A DNA stretch of 64,000 bases from Planctomycetota bacterium (lineage in GTDB: Bacteria > Planctomycetota > B15-G4), in assembly GCA_029245865.1 (NCBI GenBank), contig JAQWOM010000024.1:1-64000 (forward strand), read 5' to 3'. The notes under the pieces were generated by a model that worked only from the letters and a program-made list of their open reading frames with translations, was not told the origin of the DNA and did no database searches. A program made the translations under genes and the position numbers. The stretch's first letter is position 1, and each line of letters begins with the position of its first letter. Shown piece by piece: positions 32,985-60,514 of this stretch.

Positions 32985-33944
32985 GTGCTGACGGACAGGC
33001 TCCTGAGCGCCGTGGCCAGCCGCTATCTGGGAAAACCGGATCTGGCCGAATTTCTGAGCATTCGCTTCCCCGACCTGCCGAGCGTGCTCTCGGGAGCTCG
33101 GAACGAAGTGGCGCGCCTCCTCGGATGGGATGGGTCAGCTCGACTCACCACCCTCAACGTGGAGCTCACCAGCCGCTGCAACGCAGCCTGTAGCTACTGC
33201 GACGTCAATCGACAGCTCGGGCGCCCCAACCAAGACCTGGACCTGAGCCTCTACGCCCGCTTACTGGAGTGCAGCCCAACGCTCGAGGCTGTCCTCCCCT
33301 TCCAGTGGGGCGAGCCTCTGCTGTATCCGGCGCTCGACGAAGCACTCGCTCTGTCAACACGACGAGGCCTGCGAAGCTATCTCACGACCAATGGGCTTCT
33401 GCTCGATGGCGATCGCTTTCGACAGCTTGCTGCGACAGGCCTCGACCGACTCACGGTATCTCTCGACGGAGACGCCTCCGATCACCTAGCCCGCCGCGGC
33501 TACGACCAGACGGCCGTCATCGAGCAACTCGCGGAAGCGCGACAGGCTCAGATGCGCGACGGGCTGAAAACCAAACTGGACATCTCCATGGTTGTCGACG
33601 AAAGCGTGGCCGCAAGCATGCCCGATTTTCGTAAACGACTTTCGCCGCTCTGCGACCGACTACAATTCATCCCGCGCATGATTCAAGGAGAGCGAACCCA
33701 GAGCTGCCGTGAACCGTCCCGAGGAGTGCTCGTGGTGCTAAGCGACGGAAGCGTGACCACCTGCTGTGCGGATGTGCGCGGAGAGCTGGCGCTCGGACAT
33801 CTGAACGATGGCGATCCGGCGAGCCTCTACAACGGCCCTCGCTGGCGGGCTCTCCGGAAACAACATCGCAAGGGCGATCTACCAGTTACCTGCAAGAACT
33901 GCGCCGAGTGCAACGTCCCAGGCGTGAGCCCACGATTCTCATGA
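32985..33944 (+). CDS. Radical SAM/SPASM-type enzyme (first of two)
   Basis: The product is 319 residues from the GTG at 32985; the long upstream open frame is non-coding in character. The cluster-binding motif is CNAACSYC (Cys65, Cys69, Cys72). Next come FQWGEPLLYP and SLDGDASDHLARRG, typical of the radical-SAM barrel. The C-terminal region holds CC at VTTCCADVR and CKNCAEC, plus LGHLNDGDPASLYNG, a SPASM-like auxiliary cluster. Such enzymes modify peptides or small metabolites by radical chemistry. It is the first gene of an operon and overlaps the GT9 gene by 4 nt. No precursor peptide gene is visible beside it. Confidence 0.88.
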   Translation: MLTDRLLSAVASRYLGKPDLAEFLSIRFPDLPSVLSGARNEVARLLGWDGSARLTTLNVELTSRCNAACSYCDVNRQLGRPNQDLDLSLYARLLECSPTLEAVLPFQWGEPLLYPALDEALALSTRRGLRSYLTTNGLLLDGDRFRQLAATGLDRLTVSLDGDASDHLARRGYDQTAVIEQLAEARQAQMRDGLKTKLDISMVVDESVAASMPDFRKRLSPLCDRLQFIPRMIQGERTQSCREPSRGVLVVLSDGSVTTCCADVRGELALGHLNDGDPASLYNGPRWRALRKQHRKGDLPVTCKNCAECNVPGVSPRFS

Positions 33945-35122
33945 ACGCCCGCAGCCGACTCTACGACGCACTCAAATCCGTCGACACACTCGCCGGGGCA
34001 TTCACGACCCGGTACCTCTGCAGTCCACGGCGCCCCATGCCAGCGGCCCCACAGGATGTCCTCGCCATCAGGCTCTGGGGGCTAGGGAACCTGGCGCTGC
34101 TCGCCCCACAGTTCCACGCAGCACGTGGATCCCACCGTGTGCGCCTGCTCACCCTCGAACGCAACGGCGACTTCGTCACGCAGCACACACCATGGATTAA
34201 GCCTCTCTTGCTGCCCGACCCCGCATCACTGCGCTTTGCCCCGCGCTTGGCACGCATCCTGAGAAACCTGCGGCGTGACTCACCCGAAGTGATCATCGAC
34301 TTCGAACAGTTCCTTCGATTGCCTCTCTGGGCCGTGCGCACGGCCACTGGAGCTCCGAGCGTTGGGCTGAACACTCCTGGGCAGGGCCGCCTTCCCCTTC
34401 TAGACCAAGTCGTTCCCTACGACCCGACACGACACGTCGCAGACACCTTTGCCGCGCTGTGGGATGCGGCGGGCCTCCCGGCTGCAAACGGCCCGGGCCC
34501 ATTGAACGTCGCCCCGAGCGCACTGCCGGCCTCGATCGCCGCCAAGCTCGACAGGAATTCAGCCCGCCGCCCCCTTGTCGTGTTGCATCCCGGATCCGGT
34601 GATCATTTCCCGGGCCGTCGCTGGCCCCCCGAACGCTTCGGCCAACTTGCTAGCCGGCTGGCACAACGCGCTTCTGCTCAAATTGTCATCACAGGCCTGC
34701 CCGACGAACGCCGCCTCATCCGGAGAGTTCGTGAGTCTCTCGGCTCCACAGCACACCTCGATCTCTCCGGCGAACTGGACACGAGCGGGTTGGTGGCCCT
34801 TCTGGCTCGCGCCAATCTCTTGATCACCAATGACACAGGACCTCTTCACCTCGCCGATGCAGTGGGAACCCTGGCTGTCGCCCTTTATGGCCCCAACACG
34901 CCACACCGTTACGGCCCCCGCAAAGCGGGGTCGCGCGCAGTCTTCGCAGACCTCCCGTGCAGCCCATGCCTGGACGACAGAAGCATGAAGCGATCGAAGT
35001 GCGAACATTTCGCATGCATGGAAGCTGTGAACGTCGACGTGGTCGAAAAGATCTCTCTCGAGCTTCTCGAACAGCAACTCCCTCACCCGCACCGGGAGAG
35101 CCTTCATGCTGTCAGTCGTTGA
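33941..35122 (+). CDS. Glycosyltransferase family 9 (heptosyltransferase-like)
   Basis: The product is 393 residues. The ATG overlaps the stop of the radical-SAM gene (ATGA). The N-terminal half has LAIRLWGLGNLALLAPQF, typical of ADP-heptose:LPS heptosyltransferases. The C-terminal half has VVLHPGSGDHFPGRRWPPERF and LITNDTGPLHLADAVG, the donor-binding signatures of GT9. The donor heptose could come from GmhA/GmhB at 49-50 kb. Its position between two radical-SAM genes is unusual for an LPS-core enzyme. GT9 membership is clear; the acceptor is unknown. Confidence 0.85.
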   Translation: MNARSRLYDALKSVDTLAGAFTTRYLCSPRRPMPAAPQDVLAIRLWGLGNLALLAPQFHAARGSHRVRLLTLERNGDFVTQHTPWIKPLLLPDPASLRFAPRLARILRNLRRDSPEVIIDFEQFLRLPLWAVRTATGAPSVGLNTPGQGRLPLLDQVVPYDPTRHVADTFAALWDAAGLPAANGPGPLNVAPSALPASIAAKLDRNSARRPLVVLHPGSGDHFPGRRWPPERFGQLASRLAQRASAQIVITGLPDERRLIRRVRESLGSTAHLDLSGELDTSGLVALLARANLLITNDTGPLHLADAVGTLAVALYGPNTPHRYGPRKAGSRAVFADLPCSPCLDDRSMKRSKCEHFACMEAVNVDVVEKISLELLEQQLPHPHRESLHAVSR

Positions 35123-36161
35123 AACGGCTCATCGATACATGGCGCTGGCACGCGCCGTCTTGCGGGCACGTCGCGCCGCTTATGATCCTTTCAAACTGAC
35201 CTGGATTCTGACCGAGGCATGCTCGCAGCGCTGCCAGACCTGCAATTTATGGGCCACGGATCCGCATTCCGGGCCCGATCTTCCCACCATTCAGAAGGTC
35301 CTCAAAGCCAACCCGCAAATCACCTGGCTCAACTTATCCGGTGGCGACATGGTCGAACGCCCCGATGCACCCAGCATCATGGAGGCTGTCACATCCGAGC
35401 TTCCCAACCTCGCGCTGCTCGACTTCCCCACTGCGGGGCAAGATCTCGAGGCCACACTTGCAGCCCTCGCCCCCGCTCTCGAGTCGGCCGTACCGCGCAT
35501 CTACGTGACCGTGAGCCTCGACGGGCCAGACGACATTCATGACACCGTACGCCGATCAAAAGGTTCCGCTGCGCGCGCACGCGCGACTCTCAGAAAGCTC
35601 CAGACCATTCGCAGAAAAGGCTTTTCTGCCGTGGCGGGCATGACGCTCTCGCGACATAACGTACCCGAGCAAATGCCTGCCGACCCCAGCAGCCTTTTGC
35701 CGAACCAGCTGCCACTGGACAGCATTCATCTCAACCTGGCCCACCACTCGTCCCACTACTACCGCAATCTTTCTGACGTCGCTCCTCCGGTCGAAAGCAC
35801 GCAGAGCCTCATCGAAGCCGTTGAATCCGGACGCAAGAAACGTTTCTCGCCACTGGCGTTCATGGAGGCTCGTTATTGGTCCATAGCCAAGAAATACCTG
35901 AAGAACGGCGACGTCGGAGGCCGGTGCGGTGCCCTCCGCGCCAGCGTCTATCTGGCAGCAGATCTCACCGTCTATCCGTGCTCCATCTTTGACCGCCCGC
36001 TGGGCAACTTGGCTGATGTCGGCTATTCACTCAGGCGCATCAACACTCTCGAAGAAGCTGCGCCCACCCTGGCCAAGGTCGATGCGCGCAGTTGCCCGGG
36101 CTGCTGGTCACCCTGCGAGGCCTTTCCCACCTTGCTTGTTGGCCTAGGAAACCCGCTGTGA
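35106..36161 (+). CDS. Radical SAM enzyme (second of two)
   Basis: The product is 351 residues. The cluster motif CSQRCQTC has Cys39, Cys43 and Cys46. TWLNLSGGDMVE corresponds to the 'GGE' SAM-binding loop, with Asp in place of Glu. IYVTVSLDGPDDIHDTVRR follows. Additional cysteines near the end (GGRCGALR, VYPCSIF, SCPGCWSPC) suggest an auxiliary SPASM-like site. It overlaps the GT9 gene by 17 nt and the next gene by 4 nt (GTGA). It is not a close copy of the first radical-SAM protein in this operon. The reaction is unknown; its neighbours suggest modification of a glycan or a glycosylated molecule. Confidence 0.85.
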   Translation: MLSVVETAHRYMALARAVLRARRAAYDPFKLTWILTEACSQRCQTCNLWATDPHSGPDLPTIQKVLKANPQITWLNLSGGDMVERPDAPSIMEAVTSELPNLALLDFPTAGQDLEATLAALAPALESAVPRIYVTVSLDGPDDIHDTVRRSKGSAARARATLRKLQTIRRKGFSAVAGMTLSRHNVPEQMPADPSSLLPNQLPLDSIHLNLAHHSSHYYRNLSDVAPPVESTQSLIEAVESGRKKRFSPLAFMEARYWSIAKKYLKNGDVGGRCGALRASVYLAADLTVYPCSIFDRPLGNLADVGYSLRRINTLEEAAPTLAKVDARSCPGCWSPCEAFPTLLVGLGNPL

Positions 36162-37897
36162 TCGGAAAGCTCGCGGCCCTGATCCTTCTTGCCATCCTGG
36201 CCCATGCTCTCAGCCTCTCCGGAGGCTTTGTTTACGACGACCATCGATTCGTCGAACAGAACCCGGCACTCGGCGAAGTGACCCTCGGGGATGCTGTGCT
36301 CGATGCGTCGACACACACCTCGGATCGCGACCGTGATGTCTACAGGCCCTTGCGCCTGATCAGCCATGCATGGGACGCCCGCCACTGGGGACTTGACCCA
36401 TTTGGCTTCCACGTGCACTCGCTCGTTCTCCACGTCCTCAACGTGATTCTGGCTTTTTTCGTGCTGCGCCACCTCCTCGCCCCCGAGGGCACCACGCCCG
36501 CCATCCTGGGAGCGGGGCTACTCGCCGTTCATCCACTGGGTGTTGAAGTGGTGGGATGGATTTCGAGTCGAGGCGATCTCTACGCGCTTGGCTTCGGGCT
36601 GCTCGCGCTGGGCCTCGCCACGGGTTGGTGGAAGAGTCGCGCCGCGCTGGTCGGTGCGGCTCTCGCGGCATTCCTCGCAACCATGGCCAAAGAGTCGGCA
36701 GCCATCCTGCCCGTGGTGGCCTGGCTGCATGGAGTCTTACTTCGACGAACGCCTCGCGACACCGGCCACTTCCGAAACCTGCGTGCAGGGCCCTGGGTGA
36801 TGCTTGTTGGAGTAGGCGCCTGCTTTGTCCTCAGACAGATTGCCGTGTCGGGCGCCTCGCCCGTGCAAACAGCACCCCATGGGGGCGATCTTCTTTCGCA
36901 GGCTGGCTGGGCACTCTTTGGACTCTCCCGCACGCTGGGCGCGCTTGTGTTTCCTACCGGCCTGTCCGTGGAATACCCCCAAGACACCTGGGCCCTTGAT
37001 CCGCTCCCGATCTGGCTCCGCCCCACCACCCTGCTCGGCTTGCTGGCAATTGTGACCCCCTTTGCCTTCGCGCGACGGGGACATCCACGCGCCGCCTTTT
37101 TGAGTGCCTGGGTGTTGCTTGCCTACCTCCCCTCCAGCAGCTTGCTGGTCACTTTGCGCGAACTCGTCAATGACCGGGCCGCCTACCCGATGCTGCCTGC
37201 CGCAGGAGCTTTGCTGGGTCTCGCCTGCAGAGGTCGCCGTCCACTGGCCTGGTGCCTCTTGCTCTGCCTTGGCCTCCCGCTCGCCCTCGCATCAAGTGCA
37301 CGCTCCACGGTCTTCCGAAATGACAAAACACTCTGGACCGACGTCCTCGTGCACCACCAGGACTCCGTACGCGCTCATCTTGGCCTTGCCGAACTCGCAA
37401 CCGAGGAGCCAAGTCAACGCTTCCACCTCACCCGAGCAGCGGAGAACAGCAGACCCGGCAGCAAACTTCAGGCGATTGCCATGTCCCGGCTCGGCGAACA
37501 TCTCTTGCTTCAGACAAACGACCCACCGCAGGCCATCCCCGTCCTTGAACAGGCCTGGGCAGCCAGCAAGCACTGGGAAGGCCGCGATCGAACAGCACCA
37601 AAGTCACGCGCACTCGCCGCAGCACTCGCCCAAGCGCTCGAAGAGGTGGGCCGCTCGAACGAAGCCGAAGTCGTACTCTCCACAGCGATCAGCGAGGCTC
37701 CCGAACCCACGATGCTGCTCGTCAAGCGAGTTCAGATCCGCCTTGTACGAGCACTTCGGTCTGGCGACGCGTCCGACGTGACGGACCTCATGGAGAGCAT
37801 CGAGGATGCCGAACGCAGAGCGCCCAACCATCCACTTGTTCAGCCTCTTCGAGAACTGGCACGCCAACGACTCGGAGAGTCGGCGCTCGAACGCTGA
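36158..37897 (+). CDS. TMTC-like membrane glycosyltransferase with C-terminal repeats
   Basis: The product is 579 residues from a GTG start overlapping the radical-SAM stop. About nine or ten membrane helices fill residues 1-390. The first loop reads GGFVYDDHRFVEQNPAL, which matches the conserved 'YDD' acidic loop of GT-C O-mannosyltransferases of the TMTC/DUF1736 kind. HPLGVEVVGWISSRGDLYA also fits that family. The remaining ~180 residues are TPR-like (RAHLGLAELATEEPSQRFH, ALAQALEEVGRSNEAEVVL). TMTC enzymes transfer sugars from lipid-linked donors outside the cytoplasm. It is the last gene of the operon. Confidence 0.8.
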   Translation: MIGKLAALILLAILAHALSLSGGFVYDDHRFVEQNPALGEVTLGDAVLDASTHTSDRDRDVYRPLRLISHAWDARHWGLDPFGFHVHSLVLHVLNVILAFFVLRHLLAPEGTTPAILGAGLLAVHPLGVEVVGWISSRGDLYALGFGLLALGLATGWWKSRAALVGAALAAFLATMAKESAAILPVVAWLHGVLLRRTPRDTGHFRNLRAGPWVMLVGVGACFVLRQIAVSGASPVQTAPHGGDLLSQAGWALFGLSRTLGALVFPTGLSVEYPQDTWALDPLPIWLRPTTLLGLLAIVTPFAFARRGHPRAAFLSAWVLLAYLPSSSLLVTLRELVNDRAAYPMLPAAGALLGLACRGRRPLAWCLLLCLGLPLALASSARSTVFRNDKTLWTDVLVHHQDSVRAHLGLAELATEEPSQRFHLTRAAENSRPGSKLQAIAMSRLGEHLLLQTNDPPQAIPVLEQAWAASKHWEGRDRTAPKSRALAAALAQALEEVGRSNEAEVVLSTAISEAPEPTMLLVKRVQIRLVRALRSGDASDVTDLMESIEDAERRAPNHPLVQPLRELARQRLGESALER

Positions 37898-38776: not shown

Positions 38777-39919
38777 ATGGAGCCCTCCCGCATGTCCACC
38801 CCATTGCTCAGTGCCCTCACTCTCTGGGCGGCTCCATTTTTCCTGGTGACCACCCTGGTGGCCGCCCAGGAGGCCCCGATCACCGGTCCCGCCGCACCGA
38901 AGGCCTCTGGCAAACCCCATCTGACTGCCGAGCCGTCCCACGTGGAATTTGGAGACGCTTTTCAGGGTGAACTTCTGAACCAGGAGGTGGTGGTTCGCAA
39001 CTCGGGAACGGGAAACTTTCCACTCGCGACGATTCAAACCAGTTGTGGTTGCACCGCCGCTCGCATCATTGGCCCCGACGGCACCGAGTACCCCACTCGG
39101 GGACCAGGCAACGAGCCCATCCTCGTCTTGCACCCTGATGAAGAGATGAAGGTCATGGTGGAGTTCAACACCGCGGGCAAGAGTGGCGATGTCAGCCAGA
39201 GCATGAAACTGCACCCAGCCGACCCGAGTCTTGAGCCACTCGAAGTCGACGTACACATCCGAGTGACGAAAGCCCTTCAGGTCACACCCGCCTGGCTCAA
39301 CCTCAACAAGATTCCCAAGACGGGACCGCTGGAAGAAATCGTCCTCGTTGAGTCTGTCGAGATCGGGGACTGGGACATCACCGGATTCAAGAATCAGACC
39401 GAAGGCATTCCCCTTCCAGACTGGATGCAGTTCGAAGTTCTCGACCAGGAGGGATCGCGGCGCCGCGTCCGCGTGAGCCTCGGCAACGACCGGCCTGTCG
39501 GAGCGATTTCGACTCGCGTGGCCATTCAGATTGACCATGAGCGCATCAAGCAAGTTGACTTCGCCGTATCAGCCATCGTTGAGCCCAACGTCAGCTTCAA
39601 CACGGAAAGCAGCTCGTTTCAAGACAGCGTGAATTTCGAGCATGTGAATGCGGATGACAAAGTCACGCGCACGATCAAAGTCCTCAACAAGGACCCGAGT
39701 GTTCCGTACATGCTCGAAGGCGTCGACATCCTCACCAGCCAGAAGGATTTCTTCGAAACGGAGATACGAACTCTTGACGAGGGAGTCTCCTACGAGATTG
39801 ACATCACCGTAGATGGCGCCATTGGAGCGCCGTTTTTCCGTGGGAGTCTCGTGCTAAGGGCAGAGCACCCTGACCTGCCGAGCAAGATGATTCCGTTCCA
39901 CGGCTGGGTGCAAAAGTAG
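38777..39919 (+). CDS. Secreted DUF1573-domain protein
   Basis: The product is 380 residues; the ATG at 38792 would also give the signal peptide (LSALTLWAAPFFLVTTLVAA). The DUF1573 hallmark appears after it: VEFGDAFQGELLNQEVVVRNSGTG then TIQTSCGCTAARI, with the conserved Cys-Gly-Cys. The rest is beta-rich, with Ig-like repeats (LSLNKIPKTG-type strands, VGAISTRVAIQIDHERIKQ, EDVE). Such proteins are common in Planctomycetota and Bacteroidota and probably bind other envelope components. The sulfatase-like gene begins 5 nt later, so the two are one operon. Confidence 0.82.
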   Translation: MEPSRMSTPLLSALTLWAAPFFLVTTLVAAQEAPITGPAAPKASGKPHLTAEPSHVEFGDAFQGELLNQEVVVRNSGTGNFPLATIQTSCGCTAARIIGPDGTEYPTRGPGNEPILVLHPDEEMKVMVEFNTAGKSGDVSQSMKLHPADPSLEPLEVDVHIRVTKALQVTPAWLNLNKIPKTGPLEEIVLVESVEIGDWDITGFKNQTEGIPLPDWMQFEVLDQEGSRRRVRVSLGNDRPVGAISTRVAIQIDHERIKQVDFAVSAIVEPNVSFNTESSSFQDSVNFEHVNADDKVTRTIKVLNKDPSVPYMLEGVDILTSQKDFFETEIRTLDEGVSYEIDITVDGAIGAPFFRGSLVLRAEHPDLPSKMIPFHGWVQK

Positions 39920-39924
39920 CCAGC

Positions 39925-41532
39925 GTGAAGGTGGAATCTGAGCAAACCTCACCCGAAGCCACACACTCGGGCTTCTCGTCGAGCTTGCTGGCGGTTGTGA
40001 TTGGCGTCGCAGTCCTGGCTGCAGGCTGGTATCTCTCCAAAGAGCAAAAGATGACGATTCTCGTGGTGTCGCTCGACACCACGCGCTGGGATCACCTCAC
40101 GGCCTACGGCTACGACAAACAAACCACTCCGACCCTGGCCCGCCTTGCGGAAGAGGGGACGCGATTTACGAACGCTCGGTCGACCACGTCCTGGACTCTT
40201 CCCTCGCACATGTCCCTGTTCACCGGACTGCCAGCGGACGTACACAACGTCACCATCGACTTCCAGGTTCTCGACACCGGGCGTCGCACGATGGGGCAAG
40301 TCTTCCAGGACAATGGATTCCACACGGTTGGAATCTATTCGGCTCCCTACCTCCACGGCCGATTCGGGTTTGACCGAGGCATGGACTTTTACGAATCCGC
40401 CACCCGGCTGCCCATGGTGTATGACCTCCCACCGGAGCAGATGTCCCGCAAAGAACGCATGGAGCAACTCGAGTTCGCATCTCACCGAGAAGTCACGAGC
40501 ACTCGGGTTCGTAATCGCGCTCTACAATCGATCAAAAACCAGGAAACGCGCCCCAAAGCGTTCATGTTCCTGCACTTCTTCGACCCTCACTATGACTACA
40601 TGGCACCGCCCGAGATTTCACAGAAGTTTGTGGATCCCGGATACAGGGGGCCGGTCAACGGTGAAGGCGTGACGGGAATCCCCAGCGGGATTCCAAAGAA
40701 AGACATGGCGCAACTCATGGCCCTCTATGACGCCGAGATTCGCTTCGTTGACGAGAATCTGAACACGGTGTTGCAGTCACTCGAAGACTCGGGGCGCATC
40801 GGCTCGACAGTCGTGGTCGTCACCGCTGACCACGGCGAAGAATTCTTCGAGGATGGAAAGATCGGACACCGCATGGGGCTCCGCGAGGAGGTCATCCGAG
40901 TCCCTCTCATTTTCTGGGGACCTGGAATCATTCCGGAAGGCCAGGTCATCGACGACGAGGTCGCTCTCTACGACATCCTCCCGACCCTCATGGACTACGC
41001 CGGCATCCCCGACGACCCCCTGGTCTACGGCCGCAGCCTCCGACCGCTCATCGACGGCGACTCGCTCGCAAAGCGCCCGTCGCATTCTGCGCTGACCTTC
41101 CTTCACCGCGAGGGCCCCGACTACTACACCCGTCATGATGCCATTGTGTACGAAGGCATGAAGTATGTGCGCCGGGTGCGAGTCCCCTGGTCGCCGGACA
41201 ATCCGACCATGATCACCAACCCGCCCGATCTCGACTCCACGGAGGTCGAGATTTATGACCTGGCTGCAGACCCTGGCGAGCAGCACAATCTGTACTCCCT
41301 TCGCGGCCAGGATCCACGCGTCGAAGGCATCATCCGCGAGTTCGAAGCCGAGACCACGCGTCAGTTGAACGCGCTGCAGACATTCAGCCCCGAAGGCATG
41401 CCGGCCTCGGATGGATTTCAGCCCGAGAGCTACGAGCAACACCTGGAGATTCTCAGGGGGCTCGGCTACCTCTCCCCTGTCGAAGAGGCAACAGACGAAA
41501 GCTCACAGGAAGAGCCCGCCAGCGCTCGCTAA
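39925..41532 (+). CDS. Membrane-anchored sulfatase-fold hydrolase with Thr at the nucleophile site
   Basis: The product is 535 residues from a GTG start. One membrane helix lies near residues 21-38 (LLAVVIGVAVLAAGWYL). The alkaline-phosphatase/sulfatase fold is clear: VVSLDTTRWDHLTAYGY (Asp51 metal ligand), TSWTLPSHMSLFTGLPADVHNV, VVVTADHGEEFFEDGKIGHRMGL and GRSLRPLIDG. In FGly sulfatases the nucleophile motif is C-x-P-x-R; here it is Thr91-Leu-Pro-Ser-His95. Neither Cys nor Ser is at the key place, so it may instead be a Thr-nucleophile phosphatase or phosphodiesterase of the same superfamily. It is paired with the DUF1573 gene. Confidence 0.85.
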   Translation: MKVESEQTSPEATHSGFSSSLLAVVIGVAVLAAGWYLSKEQKMTILVVSLDTTRWDHLTAYGYDKQTTPTLARLAEEGTRFTNARSTTSWTLPSHMSLFTGLPADVHNVTIDFQVLDTGRRTMGQVFQDNGFHTVGIYSAPYLHGRFGFDRGMDFYESATRLPMVYDLPPEQMSRKERMEQLEFASHREVTSTRVRNRALQSIKNQETRPKAFMFLHFFDPHYDYMAPPEISQKFVDPGYRGPVNGEGVTGIPSGIPKKDMAQLMALYDAEIRFVDENLNTVLQSLEDSGRIGSTVVVVTADHGEEFFEDGKIGHRMGLREEVIRVPLIFWGPGIIPEGQVIDDEVALYDILPTLMDYAGIPDDPLVYGRSLRPLIDGDSLAKRPSHSALTFLHREGPDYYTRHDAIVYEGMKYVRRVRVPWSPDNPTMITNPPDLDSTEVEIYDLAADPGEQHNLYSLRGQDPRVEGIIREFEAETTRQLNALQTFSPEGMPASDGFQPESYEQHLEILRGLGYLSPVEEATDESSQEEPASAR

Positions 41533-47738: not shown

Positions 47739-49289
47739 TCAGTCGAGACGAGAGGCCTCGCGAACCATGCCTGAGAGCCGGCCCACCACTTGCTCCAGCG
47801 ACAGCTCAGACGTGTCGAGCAGCGTGGCCCCCTCTGCTCGAGCCAGAGGGGCATGGAGACGCCCGCTGTCGCGTGCATCACGGTCTGCGAGAGCCGTCGA
47901 GACCTCGGACAAAGTTGCCCCCTCGCCCGGATTCTGGGCGAGCCGCCGCTGAGCCCTCACCTCGGGCCGCGCATCGAGAAAGACACGCACAGCGGCCTCA
48001 GGAAAGACAATTGTCGCCATATCACGCCCCTCAGCCACCAGACCGGGCCCCATCCGACCGGCTGACCGCTGGATGGGCAGGAGAACCTCCCGCACACCCG
48101 GCTGCGCACTCACCTTGGACACCACAGCCGAAACACCCACGCTGCGCAAAAGGGAATCAGGAACCAGCTCGCCGGCCAGTGTCACCTGCCCACCCTCGCT
48201 GAGACCCAACTCCAGGCTCTGCGCAAGAGGAGCCAGGTCATCAGCCCCCGGATCCAGACCGGCAGCCAATGCCTGGGCGGCCACCGTCCGGTACAGCGCG
48301 CCGGAATCCAGCAGAGGGAATCCCAGTCGACGCGCCAGTTCCCGGGCCACCGAGCTCTTCCCGCTGCCGGCAGGTCCATCGATGGTCACAACAATTGGCC
48401 CGGGAGTGGCGGGTGCGAACCGAGCGTCAACTGGATGCAAAAGAAGGCGCCCCTCCTCAAGAGTGGCGTGACTGCCCGTTCGCTCAAAATCCGCCATGAC
48501 CACCAACCGGCCGCCCGACAATGCCGTCCCAAGAGAGACATCTCGGGCCTCATGCACATGTCCGCAGACAACAACATCGACTCCCGTATGAAGCACTTCG
48601 ACAACTTCTGAGTCGACAATCGCCATGGTCATCTGACTCTTCGTGCCCGTTGTTCGGGTGGCATCGTGGACCAGTCGGTGAGCCAGGTTGTCGAGAAGTC
48701 GTCGCGGCAACCTGGCAAACATCCAGCGCATGACTTTCGCGCGCAAAATCTTATGCAACCGCTGAAAACCCACATCTCGAGTGCAGAAAGCATCTCCATG
48801 CATCAACCGAACACGCTGGCCATGCACAGAGATGTCGAGCGTCTCGCGGTAGACCTCAACCCCGCACGCCTCTTCCAGCTCAGAGCCCATCAGAAAGTCG
48901 TGGTTCCCATGTAGAAGCACGACTCGAATACCGCTCTGGGTCGCGCCCCGCAAGGCCTCAAGGAATGGCGCCAAGCCGGCCTCTTCAAGTGACTGCTTTC
49001 CGAGCCAGGCGCGAAAAACATCGCCGAGCAGAAACAGTGCGTCAGCACGCTGCTCCCGGACATGGGCAATAAACTGACAAGCACGTTCAACTCCCGCCGG
49101 ATCGCCCTCGTGGAGATGAAAATCCGACGCAAACCAGGCCCTCCGCGGAGAACTGCCCCGACCGAATTCCCGAGAACGATCGGAATCATCGATTCCGACC
49201 TTTCCGCGGGGCGACAAATGTGTGATCGACAAGTGGAGTTGTCTCGTCGTTGGGATGGGCTGGCCGGTCCAGTAGACTGCCCCAGACAT
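47739..49289 (-). CDS. Fusion: UDP-2,3-diacylglucosamine hydrolase-like phosphatase + cytidylate kinase
   Basis: One 516-residue frame. Residues ~50-270 are a calcineurin-type phosphatase: Asp56-x-His58 (SDFHLHEG), GDV at 89-91, GNHD at 128-131, HGD at 164-166, GHVH at 243-246. This matches LpxH, which splits UDP-diacylglucosamine in lipid A synthesis. Residues ~297-516 are cytidylate kinase: P-loop DGPAGSGKSS (304-313), DSGALYRTVA and AEGRDMATIVFP. Two unrelated pathways are thus joined. The ATG at 49289 overlaps the divergent gmhA start in one CATG; TTG codons at 49232 or 49217 are alternative starts. rpsA lies downstream. Confidence 0.88.
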   Translation of the reverse strand: MSGAVYWTGQPIPTTRQLHLSITHLSPRGKVGIDDSDRSREFGRGSSPRRAWFASDFHLHEGDPAGVERACQFIAHVREQRADALFLLGDVFRAWLGKQSLEEAGLAPFLEALRGATQSGIRVVLLHGNHDFLMGSELEEACGVEVYRETLDISVHGQRVRLMHGDAFCTRDVGFQRLHKILRAKVMRWMFARLPRRLLDNLAHRLVHDATRTTGTKSQMTMAIVDSEVVEVLHTGVDVVVCGHVHEARDVSLGTALSGGRLVVMADFERTGSHATLEEGRLLLHPVDARFAPATPGPIVVTIDGPAGSGKSSVARELARRLGFPLLDSGALYRTVAAQALAAGLDPGADDLAPLAQSLELGLSEGGQVTLAGELVPDSLLRSVGVSAVVSKVSAQPGVREVLLPIQRSAGRMGPGLVAEGRDMATIVFPEAAVRVFLDARPEVRAQRRLAQNPGEGATLSEVSTALADRDARDSGRLHAPLARAEGATLLDTSELSLEQVVGRLSGMVREASRLD

Positions 49290-49902
49290 GGCGACTCAAG
49301 CCGACACCCACGATGAAGTCCAGGACGAGCTCCAGAGGGTCATCAGCGCTACATTTGATGACCATCTCAAGCTGCTCGAAACGTCTTCGAAGGAATTGCC
49401 TGCGGCCATCGAAGCGGCAGCTCGCATCTTAATCCATGCCTACCTCAACGGTGGCAAGGCCATCCTTTTTGGCAATGGCGGCAGCATGTCGGATGCCCAG
49501 CACATCGAAGGCGAGCTGGTAAATCGATTTTCGGTCGATCGGCCTGGCGTGGCCGCAGTTGCCCTGGGCAGCCCCGCCAGTCTCACAGCGACTGCCAATG
49601 ATTACAGCTATGACGACATGTTTGCGCGAATGCTGGTGGCTCACCACCGCCCCGGAGACGTGGCTGTCGGCTTGTCCACGAGCGGGAACTCAACAAACGT
49701 CGTCCGTGCTCTCGAGCAAGCGCGCTCTCTTGGGGCGCCATGCATCGCCTTGACTGGCGATGGCGGAGGACAGTGTCGTGGCATTGCAGACGCATTGATC
49801 GCGGTCCCGTCCCAAGAGACCCCCCGGATCCAGGAAGTCCACATCACGGTGGGCCACATGCTCTGCGACCTCGTCGAACGAGCCATCGTCGGACGCGACT
49901 GA
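49288..49902 (+). CDS. gmhA: Sedoheptulose-7-phosphate isomerase
   Basis: The product is 204 residues, a SIS-domain protein. GNGGSMSDAQHIEGELVNRF (residues ~63-82) is the GmhA signature, and AVGLSTSGNSTNVVRAL is the phosphate-binding SIS loop. VHITVGHMLCDLVE carries a conserved C-terminal His. It converts sedoheptulose-7-phosphate to D-glycero-manno-heptose-7-phosphate, the first step to ADP-heptose for LPS. It is divergent from the LpxH-Cmk gene, and the two start codons share one CATG. gmhB begins 2 nt after its stop. Confidence 0.92.
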   Translation: MATQADTHDEVQDELQRVISATFDDHLKLLETSSKELPAAIEAAARILIHAYLNGGKAILFGNGGSMSDAQHIEGELVNRFSVDRPGVAAVALGSPASLTATANDYSYDDMFARMLVAHHRPGDVAVGLSTSGNSTNVVRALEQARSLGAPCIALTGDGGGQCRGIADALIAVPSQETPRIQEVHITVGHMLCDLVERAIVGRD

Positions 49903-49903
49903 A

Positions 49904-50503
49904 GTGTCAGCACGCAACGCCGAGACAAGCGAGCTGAGGCCAGCCGTCTTTCTTGATCGCGATGGAACCCTCATCGAGGAACGCAGTTATCCGACGCGCC
50001 CCGAAGACATCGTGCCACTCCCGGGAGTGGGCGAGGCTCTCCAGCGTCTGGCATCTGCGGGCTTTCTTCGAATCGTACTCACCAATCAGTCAGCCGTGGC
50101 GCGTGGCATGTTGACTGAAAAGGGGTTGGCGATTCTGCACGAGGGCCTCGTCCAGCAACTGAGCACGCACGGCGGTGGGCTCGAGGCCATCTACTATTGT
50201 CCCCACCATCCCGACGGCATTGCCGCGGGCTACAACCACGTTTGCTCTTGTAGAAAACCGAAGCGCGGGCTGCTCGACCTTGCGATGAGAGAGCATTCGA
50301 TCGACCTCTCCCGCTCGATCTTCATCGGCGACAGTCGTCGTGATCTGTTTCTTGATGCAGGCCCCTCGGCCGGGCGTCTGCTCGTAGAAACAGGACACTC
50401 CCTGGAGGACTGCAGCGGAGCCGACGCCGTGGTCCCCTCCATCGTGGAAGCCGTTGACTGGGTCATCGAGCGCTTCGCGCCGGGGCAACTCGATCGCGGT
50501 TGA
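49904..50503 (+). CDS. gmhB: D,D-heptose 1,7-bisphosphate phosphatase
   Basis: The product is 199 residues, a HAD-family phosphatase. The nucleophile motif is FLDRDGTLIEE, with the DxD pair. LTNQSAVARG, YYCPHHPDG with CSCRKPKRGLL (the zinc-binding Cys/His loop of GmhB) and FIGDSRRDLFLDA follow. It removes the C7 phosphate in ADP-heptose synthesis. The GTG start lies 2 nt after the gmhA stop, so the pair is co-translated. The heptose could serve the GT9 enzyme at 33941. A hairpin follows the stop. Confidence 0.92.
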   Translation: MSARNAETSELRPAVFLDRDGTLIEERSYPTRPEDIVPLPGVGEALQRLASAGFLRIVLTNQSAVARGMLTEKGLAILHEGLVQQLSTHGGGLEAIYYCPHHPDGIAAGYNHVCSCRKPKRGLLDLAMREHSIDLSRSIFIGDSRRDLFLDAGPSAGRLLVETGHSLEDCSGADAVVPSIVEAVDWVIERFAPGQLDRG

Positions 50504-50592: not shown

Positions 50593-51621
50593 TCAGGGCA
50601 CGTGCCTCATGAGTGCGGGCCCCACGAGTCGGGCAGCCCACATGGGAAGCTGCGACAGCACCCGTTGTGGGATCGCCATCTTGGGGTTGCTGGGCGTGAT
50701 TGCAGAGGCCTTCCCCCCCGACGGGAAATAGAACTCGTATTCGAGTGGCGTGGGCTTGAATCCCATGTGCTGCTTGAAAGCGGCTGGACCCGAGTCCTTC
50801 CGACTGCGGCCGAAGTCGAAGATGCGGTAGCCCTTGAGCACAGAGTCTTCCATCAGCGACGCGTACAGCGCGTTGTTCACGCCGAGGCGCCCCGCTCCAG
50901 GCACTGCACCCGAGTAATACGGGTAGACCACGGAGGCTGACCCGAGGCTCAGCACAGCCGCGAGTAAGTCGCCACCGCCGGCCACACCGTGGAGAAAGGC
51001 GCGATTCCCGTAGAGAGCCATGAGCCGTCGGAAATGACCTTTCCGAAAGACGGGTGAACCGAGGCTGCGCTTGTTTAGGCAGTAGAGTTCGTAGAAATCG
51101 TTGAACAGATGCTCGCCTTCTACAAACTCAAGGCCGTGCTTGTTGCGAGCTTTGCGCACTTCGGCCCGCGCCTTACGCGGAATCGTACCGAGAACATCGT
51201 CCGGTGACTCAGGCAACTCTTTCCGATACGACTCGTAGTTCGACTCTGCCGATCGCCCGGTAACCGCTGGCCCGAGGTAGCGCGTCTCGATGTAACGAAC
51301 ATGCGTGTTACGCGCGATGATGCGCGCAGCTTCATCAAGCGCTCCGATGGCCTCTGAATCGCTGGCCAAAATGCCGCCATAAACGCCGAATGGCACCGAG
51401 ACGAGGCGTCGGCCTGTGATGGGTGCCGCCACAAGTGCAAGCGGCAAGACACCGCGAATCTCCCGCCCGACCCAGGCCACCAATGTGCGCGGTTCAAATC
51501 CGGCAGTCGAGTTGACCAGATCTAGCCAACGAGTCTCGTGAAAGGGGGTCCCTTGGGGATGCGCCAACACATACCGATCGACAGCCCGCGAGTAGCGGAT
51601 GTCCAGCAATTCAACTTTCAC
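50593..51621 (-). CDS. FemAB-like N-acyltransferase, exosortase (XrtA)-system type
   Basis: The product is 342 residues from a GTG overlapping the upstream stop (GTGA); the frame stays open upstream but lacks family features. Paired GNAT-like domains of the FemAB group are suggested by HETRWLDLVNSTAGFEPRTLVAWVG, VPFGVYGGILASD and IPRKARAEVRKARNKHGLEFVEG. The end, FDFGRSRKDSGPAAFKQHMGFKPTPLEYEF, is typical of the FemAB proteins of PEP-CTERM/XrtA exopolysaccharide loci. Such proteins transfer amino-acyl or acyl groups to sugars or peptides. It is the last gene of a unit with one GT39-like and two GT2 genes. Confidence 0.8.
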   Translation of the reverse strand: MKVELLDIRYSRAVDRYVLAHPQGTPFHETRWLDLVNSTAGFEPRTLVAWVGREIRGVLPLALVAAPITGRRLVSVPFGVYGGILASDSEAIGALDEAARIIARNTHVRYIETRYLGPAVTGRSAESNYESYRKELPESPDDVLGTIPRKARAEVRKARNKHGLEFVEGEHLFNDFYELYCLNKRSLGSPVFRKGHFRRLMALYGNRAFLHGVAGGGDLLAAVLSLGSASVVYPYYSGAVPGAGRLGVNNALYASLMEDSVLKGYRIFDFGRSRKDSGPAAFKQHMGFKPTPLEYEFYFPSGGKASAITPSNPKMAIPQRVLSQLPMWAARLVGPALMRHVP

Positions 51622-53045
51622 CGGTTGCCCCGCAGACCGGTCGGCTTCTTTGACGGCTTCAGTCGCTGAGACCTCCGATAAATCACGTAGCGGTTGTCGT
51701 GCCGTGCCAGCGGCGGAGGCACTCTGCCCACCTTGGTGATCTCGGTGAAAGACTCTTCCAGCCATCGCAACAAGTCGTCGTGATACACAGAACCAAGTCG
51801 ACTCAACTTCAAGGCGACCCAGATCTCGGATTGATTTCTGAGGAAATCGTGACGTTTCTTCTCGTCAACAAACGATTCCTCGATAACTACGGTATCGGCA
51901 AAACCCGGCTCGGCATGTAGATAGACCTGAAGAGTTGCATGTTCATCGGCGACCACGATGTCCGAGGAGCTTCCATTTTGAACCAGGAATGCGGCCACGG
52001 CCCGCAAATCATGGCGATCGCCATCTCGTTGGTATGCGACCAGGGATGGAATAAAAGCCCCGACAGCCAGCACAGCCAACGCCCATCCCAACAGTGGGCG
52101 TCGAACGGCGACAGCCTCCCAGCCGCGCCCTGCCAACAGCAGGGCGGCCGGCACCGCGCACATGGCGTACCTCTGATGGACCGAGAGCCCAGACAAAGAG
52201 ATTGCCAGAAGAAGAAGCGGTGGCAGGCCGGCTGAGAGGAGCAGCGTCGAGCCACTGCCACGTCGGTCGGCCCACGCGCTGGGCAGGCCCAGCAACGCGA
52301 GAAGGCCCACCATCGGGCCGAGGTTGTATCCGAGCCCACTCAGAAAATGAGTGAAGCTGTAGCGGCCCGGGTCAAGGCCAGCATAAGCCCGCAATGCGAC
52401 GGTTCGCGTTGAGCCACCATCAAAAAACCAGACCAGCGCGATGCACAGAACCGCGGCGGATCCGAGCCCCCACAGCACTCGCCATCGGACAGGGGGAAGA
52501 AAGAGCGGCGCCAGCAGTCCGGGCCCAAGTAGCAGGGCCGTCGGATGACAAAGAACCGCCAGAGCCCAGGCGAGCGCAGCCCTCCCGGGTCGGCAACCCT
52601 GCCCCGGGAGCGCCCAGAGCGTGGCAAGCGTCACGCACAACAAGAGAGGCGAATAAAAGCGGGCCATCTGAGCGTGGTAGATGAGCCAGGGCGACAGGGC
52701 CGCCAAGGCAGAAGCCGCCAACGCGACCCGCGGAGAAATCACATCTCGGCGCATCCGCAGCAACGCCACCACCGCCAGCAGTCCGCAAACCGCAGGCGCC
52801 GACCGCACCACCACTTCGCTGAGACCGAACACGCTGACGGAGAGCAAAATCAGCAGATAGCCCAACGGATGGCTGCGTGCTCCATGGGGCCAGTCCTCTC
52901 CTGCCAGCATTTTTTGAACGTCATGCCAGCTGTAGAACTCGTCCCCGTCCAGACTCCATTCACCGAGAGTCGCGAATCTCAGCCAGGCCGCGAGGCCCAC
53001 GATCAGGAGGGTTGCGCCCCAACCTACCCGCTCAAGACGGCTCAA
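51618..53045 (-). CDS. GT39/ArnT-like membrane glycosyltransferase
   Basis: The product is 475 residues with about ten membrane helices. An acidic first loop after helix 1 (EWSLDGDEFYSWHDVQKML) is the usual catalytic signature of GT-C enzymes such as ArnT/PMT. ARSHPLGYLLILLSVSVFG and HAQMARFYSPLLL fit the family. The end is a soluble domain with a basic tail. It should transfer sugar from a polyprenyl-phosphate donor on the outer face of the inner membrane. The start is a TTG overlapping the upstream gene (TTGA). The two GT2 genes upstream could make its lipid-linked donor. Confidence 0.8.
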   Translation of the reverse strand: MSRLERVGWGATLLIVGLAAWLRFATLGEWSLDGDEFYSWHDVQKMLAGEDWPHGARSHPLGYLLILLSVSVFGLSEVVVRSAPAVCGLLAVVALLRMRRDVISPRVALAASALAALSPWLIYHAQMARFYSPLLLCVTLATLWALPGQGCRPGRAALAWALAVLCHPTALLLGPGLLAPLFLPPVRWRVLWGLGSAAVLCIALVWFFDGGSTRTVALRAYAGLDPGRYSFTHFLSGLGYNLGPMVGLLALLGLPSAWADRRGSGSTLLLSAGLPPLLLLAISLSGLSVHQRYAMCAVPAALLLAGRGWEAVAVRRPLLGWALAVLAVGAFIPSLVAYQRDGDRHDLRAVAAFLVQNGSSSDIVVADEHATLQVYLHAEPGFADTVVIEESFVDEKKRHDFLRNQSEIWVALKLSRLGSVYHDDLLRWLEESFTEITKVGRVPPPLARHDNRYVIYRRSQRLKPSKKPTGLRGNR

Positions 53046-54139
53046 TGTGCCCCGCCACCCTCGCCGGGATCGGATTCTGTCGGGATCCGTTCAATCCGCG
53101 GCACATGGGCAAGCTGCTCATCTTTTTTGGCAGCCCCCCCGACTTCAGCGATCACCCGAGGCTCACCACCGGGCCCGAGTTCGCGCTCCACCGTGTAATC
53201 TCGAACATTGTGTGAACTCGTGAAGATAATGATCTCTCCGACCAGCCCGAGGGCGAAGATTTGTACGCCCAAAACAATGAGGGCCATGCCCGCGACAAGT
53301 GAAGCACGATTACGCGTCGAATCTGCAGGGCTCCATTCGAGCAAGTAGTCCAAGCTCAACCACATGCAGATGATCACACCCAACAATGCGCAGATCCCGC
53401 CAGCCATTCCGAAAAACCGAAGCGGCTTGCGTGTGAAGCGCGTGATGAACATCAAGGCCACCACATCCAGGACTCGGCGCACGTAGACGCCTAATCCGAA
53501 AAATCCTTGCCGCCCTCTTTCCCGAAGATGCCGAACACGCACTTCCCCCACCTTGAAACCCTGTCGGTGTGCGAGGACAGGAAGGAAGCGCGAAACATTC
53601 CCCTCCACAAGCACTTCGTCGATGACGCAGCGACGCATACCTGTCAGTCCGCAGTTCAGATCATGCAATCGCACGCCAGTGAGCGCGCTCATGGCTCGGT
53701 TGTACAGCCAGGACTGAACGCGATTGGTGATCGGGTCAACGCGCGGAACACGCCAGCCCGCCACCAGGTCGAAACCGCCCTCCAAGGCTTCCAACACGTG
53801 GTGGATGTCGCCTGGATCCAGCTGCATATAAGAGGGGAGGGAAACCACAAGGCGTCCGTAAGCGGTGCGGTAGCCCACGGCAAGCGCTCGCTCTTCACCA
53901 AACGGCTGGTTGAAGTGAGCGAACCTGACCGGAGCTCCCGGTGGAATGAGAGAGCGGATACGCTCAGTGCGCTCCTCACCAAGCCCGTCGAGCACGCAGA
54001 CAAATTCGTAGCGAACCCCGCGCTCCTCGAATTCTGCGCTGTACTGGCGAATGATCTCGCCGAGGTCCGGACAATCATCCACGAGTGCCAGGACGGCGCT
54101 GACGTCGACCTCACTCTCAAGCTGACTCACAGGAAACAT
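53042..54139 (-). CDS. GT2 polyprenyl-phosphate glycosyltransferase (second)
   Basis: The product is 365 residues. The ATG has GAGAGGA directly upstream. The catalytic domain is DPM1/ArnC-like: AVLALVDDCPDLGEIIRQY, ALAVGYRTAYGRLVVSLPSYMQLDPGD and VAGWRVPRVDPITNRVQSW. In most GT2 enzymes a DxD occurs at 'DGDG'; here the place reads MQLDPGD. The C-terminal part has two membrane helices (FFGMAGGICALLGVIICMWL, MALIVLGVQIFALGLVGEI) and a charged tail. It overlaps its upstream GT2 paralogue by 13 nt. Confidence 0.8.
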   Translation of the reverse strand: MFPVSQLESEVDVSAVLALVDDCPDLGEIIRQYSAEFEERGVRYEFVCVLDGLGEERTERIRSLIPPGAPVRFAHFNQPFGEERALAVGYRTAYGRLVVSLPSYMQLDPGDIHHVLEALEGGFDLVAGWRVPRVDPITNRVQSWLYNRAMSALTGVRLHDLNCGLTGMRRCVIDEVLVEGNVSRFLPVLAHRQGFKVGEVRVRHLRERGRQGFFGLGVYVRRVLDVVALMFITRFTRKPLRFFGMAGGICALLGVIICMWLSLDYLLEWSPADSTRNRASLVAGMALIVLGVQIFALGLVGEIIIFTSSHNVRDYTVERELGPGGEPRVIAEVGGAAKKDEQLAHVPRIERIPTESDPGEGGGAH

Positions 54140-55074
54140 TCCTCTCTGGCCATGGGCGCATACGCAGTCTCACGTGCCGAACTGCTTCGCAGCGCAAGTT
54201 CGCACAGCAGCCCCATCATGAGGAAGTAAAACGATAGGCAGTAACAGAGCGTGCCGATCGCGGGCAAGATGACTGTGGAAGAGTCAACCAGTTCCAGAGT
54301 CCCGGTGTCGACGAATGCCACGAAGCTCAATCCCAGCGCGATCATGAAGGTGAAGATGCCAAGCAGCCCAAAATAGTGCATCGGGTGACCGCTAAATCTT
54401 ACGAGCAACCGCAGCACAACCATGTCCGTGAGAAGTTTCCAGGTGCGGCCGATCCCGTACTTGGAGACGCCGTCTCGCCTGGGGTGGTGCCGGACCACTT
54501 GCTCTCCGACTCGTGCGCCTACTGCAGCGGCTAGCCCCGGAATGAATCGGTGCATGTCGGAATAAAGGTGCAACTTGCGGATGATCCCGGCGCGATAGAC
54601 TTTGAGAGTGCAACCAAAGTCGTGCAATCTCACGCCTGTGATCTCAGCCAGCAGCCAGTTGGCGATGACAGAGGGAATCACGCGGCTCATCACATTGTCC
54701 TGTCGGTTCTTTCGCCAACCGCTCACGATGTCGTATCCCTCATCCAACTGAGCCAAGAGATCGGGGATGTCCATCGGGTCGTTTTGGCCGTCTCCGTCCA
54801 TCGTGACCAACACATCACCTCGAGCCGCGTGAAAACCGGCCGCCATGGCTGATGTTTGCCCGAAGTTCCGCTGAAGACGTAATACGTGCAGATAACGGCT
54901 CTTGAGGCGGTGTTTCTCCAGTTCCTCAAATGTACCGTCGCGGCTTCCATCATCGACGACGATGATCTCAGACTCCCGCGGGATGCTGTCCAGGGCCTTT
55001 TCAACGTCATCAAGAAGCGGACCGATAGAGCCCACTTCATTATAAACGGGGATGATGACAGACAGCGTGACCAC
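54127..55074 (-). CDS. GT2 polyprenyl-phosphate glycosyltransferase (first)
   Basis: The product is 315 residues from a GTG start. It has the standard start VTLSVIIPVYNEVGSIGPLL, then IIVVDDGSRDGTFEEL, VLVTMDGDGQNDPMDIP (DxD site), GWRKNRQDNVMSRVIPSVIANWL and GVSKYGIGRTWKLL. Two membrane helices near the end (FGLLGIFTFMIALGLSF, LCYCLSFYFLMMGLL) match ArnC/GtrB-type enzymes that make lipid-phosphate sugars. It is the first gene of the GT2-GT2-GT39-FemAB unit and is divergent from the sensor-kinase-like gene across 67 nt. Confidence 0.88.
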   Translation of the reverse strand: MVTLSVIIPVYNEVGSIGPLLDDVEKALDSIPRESEIIVVDDGSRDGTFEELEKHRLKSRYLHVLRLQRNFGQTSAMAAGFHAARGDVLVTMDGDGQNDPMDIPDLLAQLDEGYDIVSGWRKNRQDNVMSRVIPSVIANWLLAEITGVRLHDFGCTLKVYRAGIIRKLHLYSDMHRFIPGLAAAVGARVGEQVVRHHPRRDGVSKYGIGRTWKLLTDMVVLRLLVRFSGHPMHYFGLLGIFTFMIALGLSFVAFVDTGTLELVDSSTVILPAIGTLCYCLSFYFLMMGLLCELALRSSSARETAYAPMAREECFL

Positions 55075-55141
55075 CAGGCGCTCGATGCATGCTCTACTTA
55101 GGACCGTTTCAGACCGGCATCGTACCCCGACCGTCCCTCAC

Positions 55142-56173
55142 ATGAATGCCATGTCGGTGGTCCTCTTTGCCTCAACCCGGCATCCCGACCTTCAGGCGCT
55201 CGTGAGCGCCCTCGAGGCCGGCGTAGGGCCTACACATGTAGCGCTCTCGGCCAAAGAGGCCTTCCAGGCGTGGGAAGCGGCCCCTCGCTCCCTGCTCTTG
55301 CTGGACCTTCGCGGAGGAGATGAGGAGGGGCTACAGGCAGCCCAAAGCCTTCGAAAGGCCTGCTCTCGTGCCCGATCGCTGTGCTTGCTGCCTACAGGGC
55401 TCGGGCCGGCTCCTGAGGCCGATGGGGTCCTGAGGCCCCCTATTTTCCTCGATGAGGTCGTTCGATGGTGCTCCAGGGCGTCCCTGGGCCCCCTGGGCGA
55501 AGAAATTCTTGCGGATATGGCGGCTGGCCTGAGCCATGAAATAGGGAACCCCTTGACCTCACTTTTGCTCCAGATCGAGCTGCTGAAGGCCGATCCGAGC
55601 CTGAAGAAAGTTGCTGAGCACCTGACCCCCCTCGAGGAATCCGCTCGACGCATCCAGACCGTTGTCGAAGACGTGACCCGGGCAGCACTCCGTCAACCCG
55701 TCCGGGTCAACGACATCCGCCTGGAGCAATTTCTGAAACAGACGTCTCAATGCCTCGGAGAACGTTCGCCAGAGCTAATGGATAAACTAGAGATCACGTG
55801 CGAAGACACCGCGATTCACGTCGATGGCGGGCTGCTGTCCGGCGCGCTGGCAGACGTGTGGGAATATCTCTTTCGAGCAGGCGAGGGCCACGAGACGCTG
55901 AGCGTGAAAGGTGCTGCTGTCGCCTCCGGCCCCGTGAGAATTCGCCATCGAGCTCACACTCCCCGACTGCCCACCGACGCCGCCGCCCGGCTCTTCACAC
56001 CGCTCTGGGCTCGCCAGGCTCTTGGACTCCCCGAGGGACTCAGCCTGACCACAGCGCGCAACGCATTCCGGCGACATGGCGGCGACATGCGAGCTCGATC
56101 CGACGGGGAGCAGCTCATCGTGGAAGCCATTCTTCCGGCAACAACTCAAACATCATTGAGCTTCAAAAAATGA
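55142..56173 (+). CDS. Degenerate hybrid sensor histidine kinase
   Basis: The product is 343 residues from the ATG at 55142; 55151 is also possible. The N-terminal ~105 residues look like a receiver domain with LLLLDLRGGDEEG, but the acidic pair normally near the N terminus is missing. A HisKA domain follows with an intact H-box AGLSHEIGNPLTSLLLQIEL. The C-terminal ATPase domain is degenerate: no N-box is seen, and the G2 region reads GLPEGLSLTTA instead of GTGLGLA. It may still take part in signalling as a phosphate acceptor or dimer partner. It is followed after 31 nt by the giant TPR gene and lies within the exopolysaccharide-type region. Confidence 0.78.
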   Translation: MNAMSVVLFASTRHPDLQALVSALEAGVGPTHVALSAKEAFQAWEAAPRSLLLLDLRGGDEEGLQAAQSLRKACSRARSLCLLPTGLGPAPEADGVLRPPIFLDEVVRWCSRASLGPLGEEILADMAAGLSHEIGNPLTSLLLQIELLKADPSLKKVAEHLTPLEESARRIQTVVEDVTRAALRQPVRVNDIRLEQFLKQTSQCLGERSPELMDKLEITCEDTAIHVDGGLLSGALADVWEYLFRAGEGHETLSVKGAAVASGPVRIRHRAHTPRLPTDAAARLFTPLWARQALGLPEGLSLTTARNAFRRHGGDMRARSDGEQLIVEAILPATTQTSLSFKK

Positions 56174-56204
56174 TGATTCTACGCCCCCTCCTGGAGGTTG
56201 CGGA

Positions 56205-60485: not shown

Positions 60486-60514
60486 CTCCGACTCGAGCCG
60501 GCGGCCCCCCTGCG

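Follow-up and report, generated by a model that had tools for sequence, protein, structure and literature searches.

Within a 64,000-nucleotide stretch of Planctomycetota bacterium DNA (contig JAQWOM010000024.1 of assembly GCA_029245865.1, positions 1 to 64,000), here called the window, four plus-strand genes form a compact cassette. The first, RS1 (32985, GTG start, to 33944), encodes a putative radical S-adenosylmethionine (SAM) enzyme with a Twitch-like C-terminal Fe-S domain. It is followed by a glycosyltransferase family 9 gene, GT9 (33941 to 35122), by RS2 (35106 to 36161), a predicted radical-SAM enzyme of another subfamily than RS1, and by a predicted TMTC-like GT-C membrane glycosyltransferase with a C-terminal TPR region (36158, GTG start, to 37897). 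The successive overlaps are 4, 17 and 4 nt, and an independent codon-usage gene call gave identical coordinates for all four genes. An earlier note, made from the sequence alone, had described four overlapping genes (4-17 nt) in which two distinct radical-SAM proteins flank a GT9 ahead of a GT-C protein with a TPR tail; the coordinates were reproduced, and Pfam, motifs and fold agree with that description. In the codon-usage call the cassette is bordered on the left by a divergently oriented phosphodiesterase gene and on the right by a convergent gene for a 193-residue protein. The genome is 3.33 Mb in size, and its named relatives are Planctomycetota metagenome-assembled genomes (MAGs). No earlier description of this cassette was found in the open-access literature searched.

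Conservation of the cassette across genomes

The search for RS1 and RS2 covered 58 related genomes, and that for RS1 also 392 Planctomycetota genomes with a threshold of E≤1e-50. The surroundings of RS1 were fetched and scanned with profiles made from the cassette proteins. These are nearly all MAGs, and some of them contain frameshifts or are split into short contigs. RS1 was present in 41 of the 392 phylum genomes, about one in ten of those sampled. A Planctomycetota locus counted as testable when 5 kb or more of sequence was available downstream of RS1 (n = 23); the shorter loci end near contig ends.

RS1, GT9, RS2 and the TMTC-like gene occurred together on one strand in 23 of the 23 testable loci. 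A third radical-SAM gene, RS3, not noticed in the earlier note, was additionally found in 18 of them. The window and its family (L066-L068) make up four of the five loci lacking RS3, and the fifth, L153, contains a stretch with a broken reading frame that resembles RS3 at its end. In the six genomes of the window family the RS3 profile matched nothing but other radical-SAM genes, and those weakly. The cassette was found without RS1 in G005, of the window family, and in G173. The gene order is RS1-RS3-GT9-TMTC in several families, with RS2 last, and RS1-GT9-RS2-RS3-TMTC in the taxonomic order of the window and in family f19. RS1 and RS2 also occur in two Omnitrophota genomes, one of which has GT9 as well.

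Because the four genes are kept together in every testable locus, in two gene orders, the cassette is a functional grouping and not a chance one. The earlier note had called for a search for conserved gene order, and would have taken homologues usually found singly in unrelated contexts as a sign of chance; the search recovered the grouping with a varying order, and solitary homologues were not the usual case. Across loci, distances in the five protein families are correlated with one another (Spearman 0.39-0.80, the observed value reached in 0 of 500 permutations), which reflects co-inheritance and not function, the permutation ignoring shared ancestry. Other flanking genes are conserved in other Planctomycetota families, namely purC/purE/mtnA-like, pantothenate kinase, dihydroorotase-like, Big_5 and protein kinase genes. 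They were not counted as cassette members because they vary between families.

Radical-SAM enzymes RS1, RS2 and RS3

The CNAACSYC of RS1 and the CSQRCQTC of RS2 both have the form CX3CX2C and are invariant across all aligned cassette copies. RS1 scored 56.8 bits against Pfam Radical_SAM. The window copy of RS2 scored 21.1 bits, under the cut-off of 29.5, and two tested orthologues scored 36.5 and 70.9 bits, over it. On this motif and domain, RS1 and RS2 are assigned to the radical-SAM superfamily. Since every NCBIfam model falls far under its cut-off for both, they represent uncharacterised families.

RS1, RS2 and RS3 each combine the CX3CX2C core with five conserved C-terminal cysteines, each missing from no more than one of the 37, 26 and 23 sequences, respectively. 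The cysteines of RS1 (core C65/69/72; auxiliary 241, 260, 261, 303 and 306) are conserved in 36-37 of 37 sequences and those of RS2 (core C39/43/46; auxiliary 274, 292, 330, 333 and 337) in 25-26 of 26. The C-terminal spacing is a cysteine, 17-18 residues, a second cysteine, and a CX2C 31-42 residues further, that is, C241-C260-C303xxC306 in RS1, C274-C292-C330xxC333 in RS2 and C273-C291-C323xxC326 in RS3. The seven-cysteine SPASM motif binds two auxiliary clusters (PMC6231123). For Twitch, with one auxiliary cluster, the criterion applied was a cysteine before and one after the hairpin, plus CX2C or CXC past the last helix. Because five and not seven C-terminal cysteines are conserved, with Twitch-type spacing, the C-termini of RS1, RS2 and RS3 fit a single-cluster Twitch-like domain and not a full SPASM domain. 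Of the earlier label radical-SAM/SPASM only the first half was therefore retained, although RS1 does score over the Pfam SPASM cut-off, at 35.7 bits.

When sequences were compared with solved structures, RS1 matched BtrN best (1e-21 and 9e-22) and cytosylglucuronate decarboxylase second, and its C-terminus aligns with BtrN. RS3 matched cytosylglucuronate decarboxylase best (2e-27), with SkfB close behind; the best PDB match of RS2 was SkfB. BtrN acts on an aminocyclitol, as 2-deoxy-scyllo-inosamine dehydrogenase, BlsE is a cytosylglucuronate decarboxylase and DesII a sugar deaminase. Structure prediction, as proposed in the earlier note, was carried out for RS1 and the GT-C protein. The AlphaFold2 model of RS1 had a predicted local distance difference test score (pLDDT) of 93.5, and its fold search placed BtrN and then BlsE on top, with DesII, MoaA and SuiB within the first ten.

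Relatives of RS1 outside the cassette, at about 30% identity, lie in other contexts, for example beside a WbqC-like gene. In G049 an RS2 relative and a PMT_2-type GT-C gene overlap, and in G033 a further RS2 relative has glycosyltransferases and B12-binding-type radical-SAM enzymes around it. On contig C15 of the window genome, G000 (L173:6482-8700), an RS2-like radical-SAM gene overlaps a GT2 gene by 4 nt, and similar radical-SAM copies occur in G001, G002 and G004. A role of the radical-SAM enzymes as prokaryotic viperins (pVip) in defence was rejected: NF038283 scored 41.9 bits against a cut-off of 180, and the PADLOC pVip match of 53 bits lies over the radical-SAM core.

Glycosyltransferases and neighbouring genes

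GT9 scored 94.3 bits against Pfam Glyco_transf_9, and its best PDB match was 3tov, with WaaF (1psw) also matched. Among its invariant columns, a conserved N-terminal segment reads K..DR..G and four C-terminal cysteines (C340, C343, C354, C359) are unchanged in 31 aligned copies. A GT9 profile search of the phylum gave tiers of matches, those above about 385 bits being mostly cassette copies, followed by more distant ones. The earlier note had suggested that the GT9 donor could come from gmhA and gmhB. Both genes are present in the window (49288-49902 and 49904-50503), about 11 kb past the cassette, but ADP-heptose from them was rejected as the donor. Cassette GT9 scored 90 bits against the lipopolysaccharide heptosyltransferase II model TIGR02195 (cut-off 134.6), and no gmhA or gmhB was found at any other cassette locus within the stretches examined. 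Two other GT9 genes of the window genome pass this cut-off, each adjoining an ADP-heptose synthase domain. On contig C9 of G000 (L169:6182-9011) a radical-SAM gene, a heptosyltransferase-II-type GT9 and an ADP-heptose synthase domain stand consecutively.

By Pfam the fourth protein has TPR only; TMTC_DUF1736 gave no match at E≤0.1 among 11 family members. Human TMTCs share the motifs DD, YRP, RxD, KE, DW and ERxxY (PMC7801869, Table 4). All 26 cassette GT-C proteins keep DD, KE, the RP of YRP and the D of RxD, and the Arg of DRxxY is conserved in all 25 with a residue at that site. The DW site has D or E in 18 of 26, and the SHK of SHKSYRP is not retained in the window copy. The AlphaFold2 model (pLDDT 91.6) matched ArnT (5f15) best in the PDB, at E 4.7e-4, the sole match at E≤0.001, with an OST-A complex chain second. 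The motifs outweigh the fold here, since the E-values of the fold matches are weak and many of the remaining matches fall on the TPR tail. By motifs and predicted fold, the protein qualifies as a TMTC-like GT-C glycosyltransferase with a TPR tail. The window genome has several TMTC-like genes. At G000:C28:91390-95369 a radical-SAM gene lies about 2.3 kb from another TMTC-like gene on the opposite strand, with similar spacing in several genomes of the family.

A sister cassette is present on contig C34 of the window genome (L168:6286-14970). It consists of a B12-binding radical-SAM gene, a GT9 related to that of the cassette (281 bits), a second radical-SAM gene and a GT-C gene encoding a PMT_2/TPR/FG-GAP protein of 1222 amino acids. 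The first radical-SAM enzyme is B12-binding by Pfam; the second has no B12 domain at the cut-off and is homologous to the first by profile. The same order was found in G002, G003 and G005, and a GT9 beside a radical-SAM gene of the second type recurs elsewhere, for example at L207, L210, L211, L216 and L222. These sister cassettes and recurring pairs show a repeated coupling between this GT9 subfamily and radical-SAM enzymes.

In two relatives RS1 and GT9 are separated by a NodU/CmcH-type carbamoyltransferase gene (L149:4460-6241, L104:10958-12646); such a gene adjoins the cassette in others, and deacetylase-like neighbours also occur. In one Omnitrophota genome (L105:9037-11175) the gene between RS1 and RS2 reads as a GT9 fused to a putative SAM-dependent methyltransferase domain; in the other, a gene beside RS1-RS2 reads as GT4-like. 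In several families two genes upstream of RS1 (L161:10159-15334 and syntenic loci) encode large Big_5-type proteins whose N-termini look like signal peptides or like those of lipoproteins; these proteins are possible acceptors.

Two accessory, non-core genes follow the window cassette on the plus strand. The first (38792 to 39919) encodes a DUF1573/Ig-like protein by Pfam and is syntenic in the window family and order (L066-L069, L074, L077, L079). The second (39925 to 41532), supported by synteny and Pfam Sulfatase, encodes a sulfatase-superfamily protein with Thr replacing Cys/Ser at the nucleophile site; six syntenic copies read T[LM]P[SA]H there. Formylglycine maturation of this protein was rejected, the site being TLPSH and not the Cys/Ser-x-Pro/Ala-x-Arg looked for in an anaerobic sulfatase-maturating enzyme (anSME) system. 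Farther on, 50593-63722 is a surface-polysaccharide region with an XrtA/PEP-CTERM-associated FemAB protein (over cut-off), two ArnC-like GT2 genes and two GT4-like genes.

Proposed pathway and comparison with known systems

With moderate confidence, we propose that the cassette specifies a conserved glycosylation pathway in which a sugar is edited by radical chemistry. The pairing of radical chemistry with glycan transfer, suggested in the earlier note, is the best reading of the likeness to BtrN and BlsE, the GT-C motifs and fold, and the carbamoyltransferase, GT4-like and deacetylase-like neighbours. The proposal is also favoured by the linkage of the four genes in all 23 testable loci, the correlated family distances, the GT9-methyltransferase fusion, the RS2 relative that overlaps a GT-C gene in G049, and the sister cassette. 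We infer the order of the steps, the donor and the acceptor as follows. At the cytoplasmic face GT9 would take a sugar from a nucleotide-sugar donor and add it to an acceptor that is either lipid-linked or small. RS1 and RS2, with RS3 in most lineages, would generate 5'-deoxyadenosyl radicals, each using one auxiliary Fe-S cluster as electron acceptor, and may edit the carbon skeleton of the added sugar or cyclitol by dehydrogenation, decarboxylation, deoxygenation or epimerisation. In the periplasm the TMTC-like GT-C protein would transfer a polyprenyl-phosphate-linked sugar to a surface acceptor bound by its TPR tail, most likely a protein.

Several observations weigh against this proposal. 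The nearest solved relative of RS2 is SkfB, a peptide enzyme, which RS3 matches almost as well as BlsE. RS3 is missing in the window family and RS1 in G005 and G173, so not every step would always be needed, and a polyprenyl-phosphate-sugar synthase is not a member of the cassette. Function does not track sequence clusters in the SPASM/Twitch group (PMC6231123); because such clusters predict the reaction poorly, the sugar substrate of the radical-SAM enzymes is something we infer from their relatives.

The SkfB matches point to another reading, in which the radical-SAM enzymes crosslink or epimerise a peptide or protein, like maturases of ribosomally synthesized and post-translationally modified peptides (RiPPs), and both glycosyltransferases then glycosylate the same product. 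SkfB is a sactisynthase, and RiPP maturases are abundant in the SPASM/Twitch group. The earlier note had seen no precursor peptide, and this held: among 631 small open reading frames compared outside the cassette genes, none was conserved beside the cassettes, and those that recurred look like antisense shadows of flanking genes that are themselves conserved. In the RS1 model the part ahead of the core is all helices, with no winged-helix RiPP recognition element, the 40-55 or so residues ahead of CX3CX2C in RS2 and RS3 are too short for one, and RiPP maturase models scored far under their cut-offs. The enzymes thus lack both the nearby precursor and the recognition element of radical-SAM RiPP maturases, and we regard this reading as unlikely. 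Slightly more doubtful still is a glycolipid product, for which the radical-SAM enzymes would edit or join lipid tails and GT9 and the GT-C protein would make the headgroup. The archaeal tetraether synthase GDGT-MAS (7tol) matches RS1 (7e-13) and RS3 (3e-13), and lipid acceptors are possible for GT9 and GT-C enzymes; RS1 nevertheless matches BtrN better and RS3 cytosylglucuronate decarboxylase, and no recurring lipid-synthesis genes were recognised beside the cassette.

A role of RS1 and RS2 in maturing a metalloenzyme or a sulfatase-type enzyme, in the manner of tungsten-oxidoreductase maturases or anSME and with the glycosyltransferases as bystanders, is very improbable. The top NCBIfam names for RS1 are indeed metalloenzyme maturases, and the sulfatase-like gene lies downstream, but RS1 reaches 71.5 bits against a cut-off of 380, the sulfatase-like protein carries Thr-Leu-Pro-Ser-His and adjoins the cassette in some families only, and the glycosyltransferases are the constant partners of the radical-SAM enzymes. 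A chance grouping of unrelated genes is scarcely credible: other homologues of each family do exist in the genome (41 radical-SAM matches and the several TMTC-like genes), yet the grouping spans many families of the phylum and is kept through gene-order rearrangement.

If the proposed sugar-editing pathway is true, it would tie the large and mostly uncharacterised radical-SAM superfamily to surface glycosylation, define a testable substrate class for three orthologous enzyme families, provide a functional handle on bacterial TMTC-like GT-C proteins, and predict unusual surface sugars in uncultured Planctomycetota. More tentatively, and with rather low confidence, three radical-SAM reactions might build or edit a sugar displayed extracellularly by a TMTC-type O-glycosyltransferase system, a new surface (glyco)protein modification with a parallel version in the same genome that uses at least one B12-binding radical-SAM enzyme.

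Among known systems, SkfB and the SPASM/Twitch RiPP maturases share with RS2 its nearest solved structure and a Twitch-like five-cysteine C-terminus, whereas the cassette has neither a precursor peptide nor an N-terminal domain the size of a recognition element. The GT9 heptosyltransferases WaaF/RfaF share the family and the DTGP.HLA motif with cassette GT9, which differs in scoring under the heptosyltransferase-II cut-off and is distinct from the two GT9s of the genome that pass it. With TMTC1-4 and ArnT the cassette GT-C protein shares the DD, (Y/W)RP, D of RxD, KE and DR elements, the GT-C fold and C-terminal TPR, but it is without SHK and without a detected TMTC_DUF1736. BtrN and BlsE give the best sequence and fold matches of RS1, and the BlsE type the best sequence match of RS3; the kinship of RS1 with the BtrN family is one of fold and sequence only. 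They share the CX3CX2C core and single-auxiliary-cluster cysteine pattern with these cassette enzymes, which are about 20% identical to them and have one extra conserved cysteine and an N-terminal helical extension. BtrN and BlsE belong to antibiotic clusters, whereas the cassette enzymes are found in a glycosyltransferase operon.

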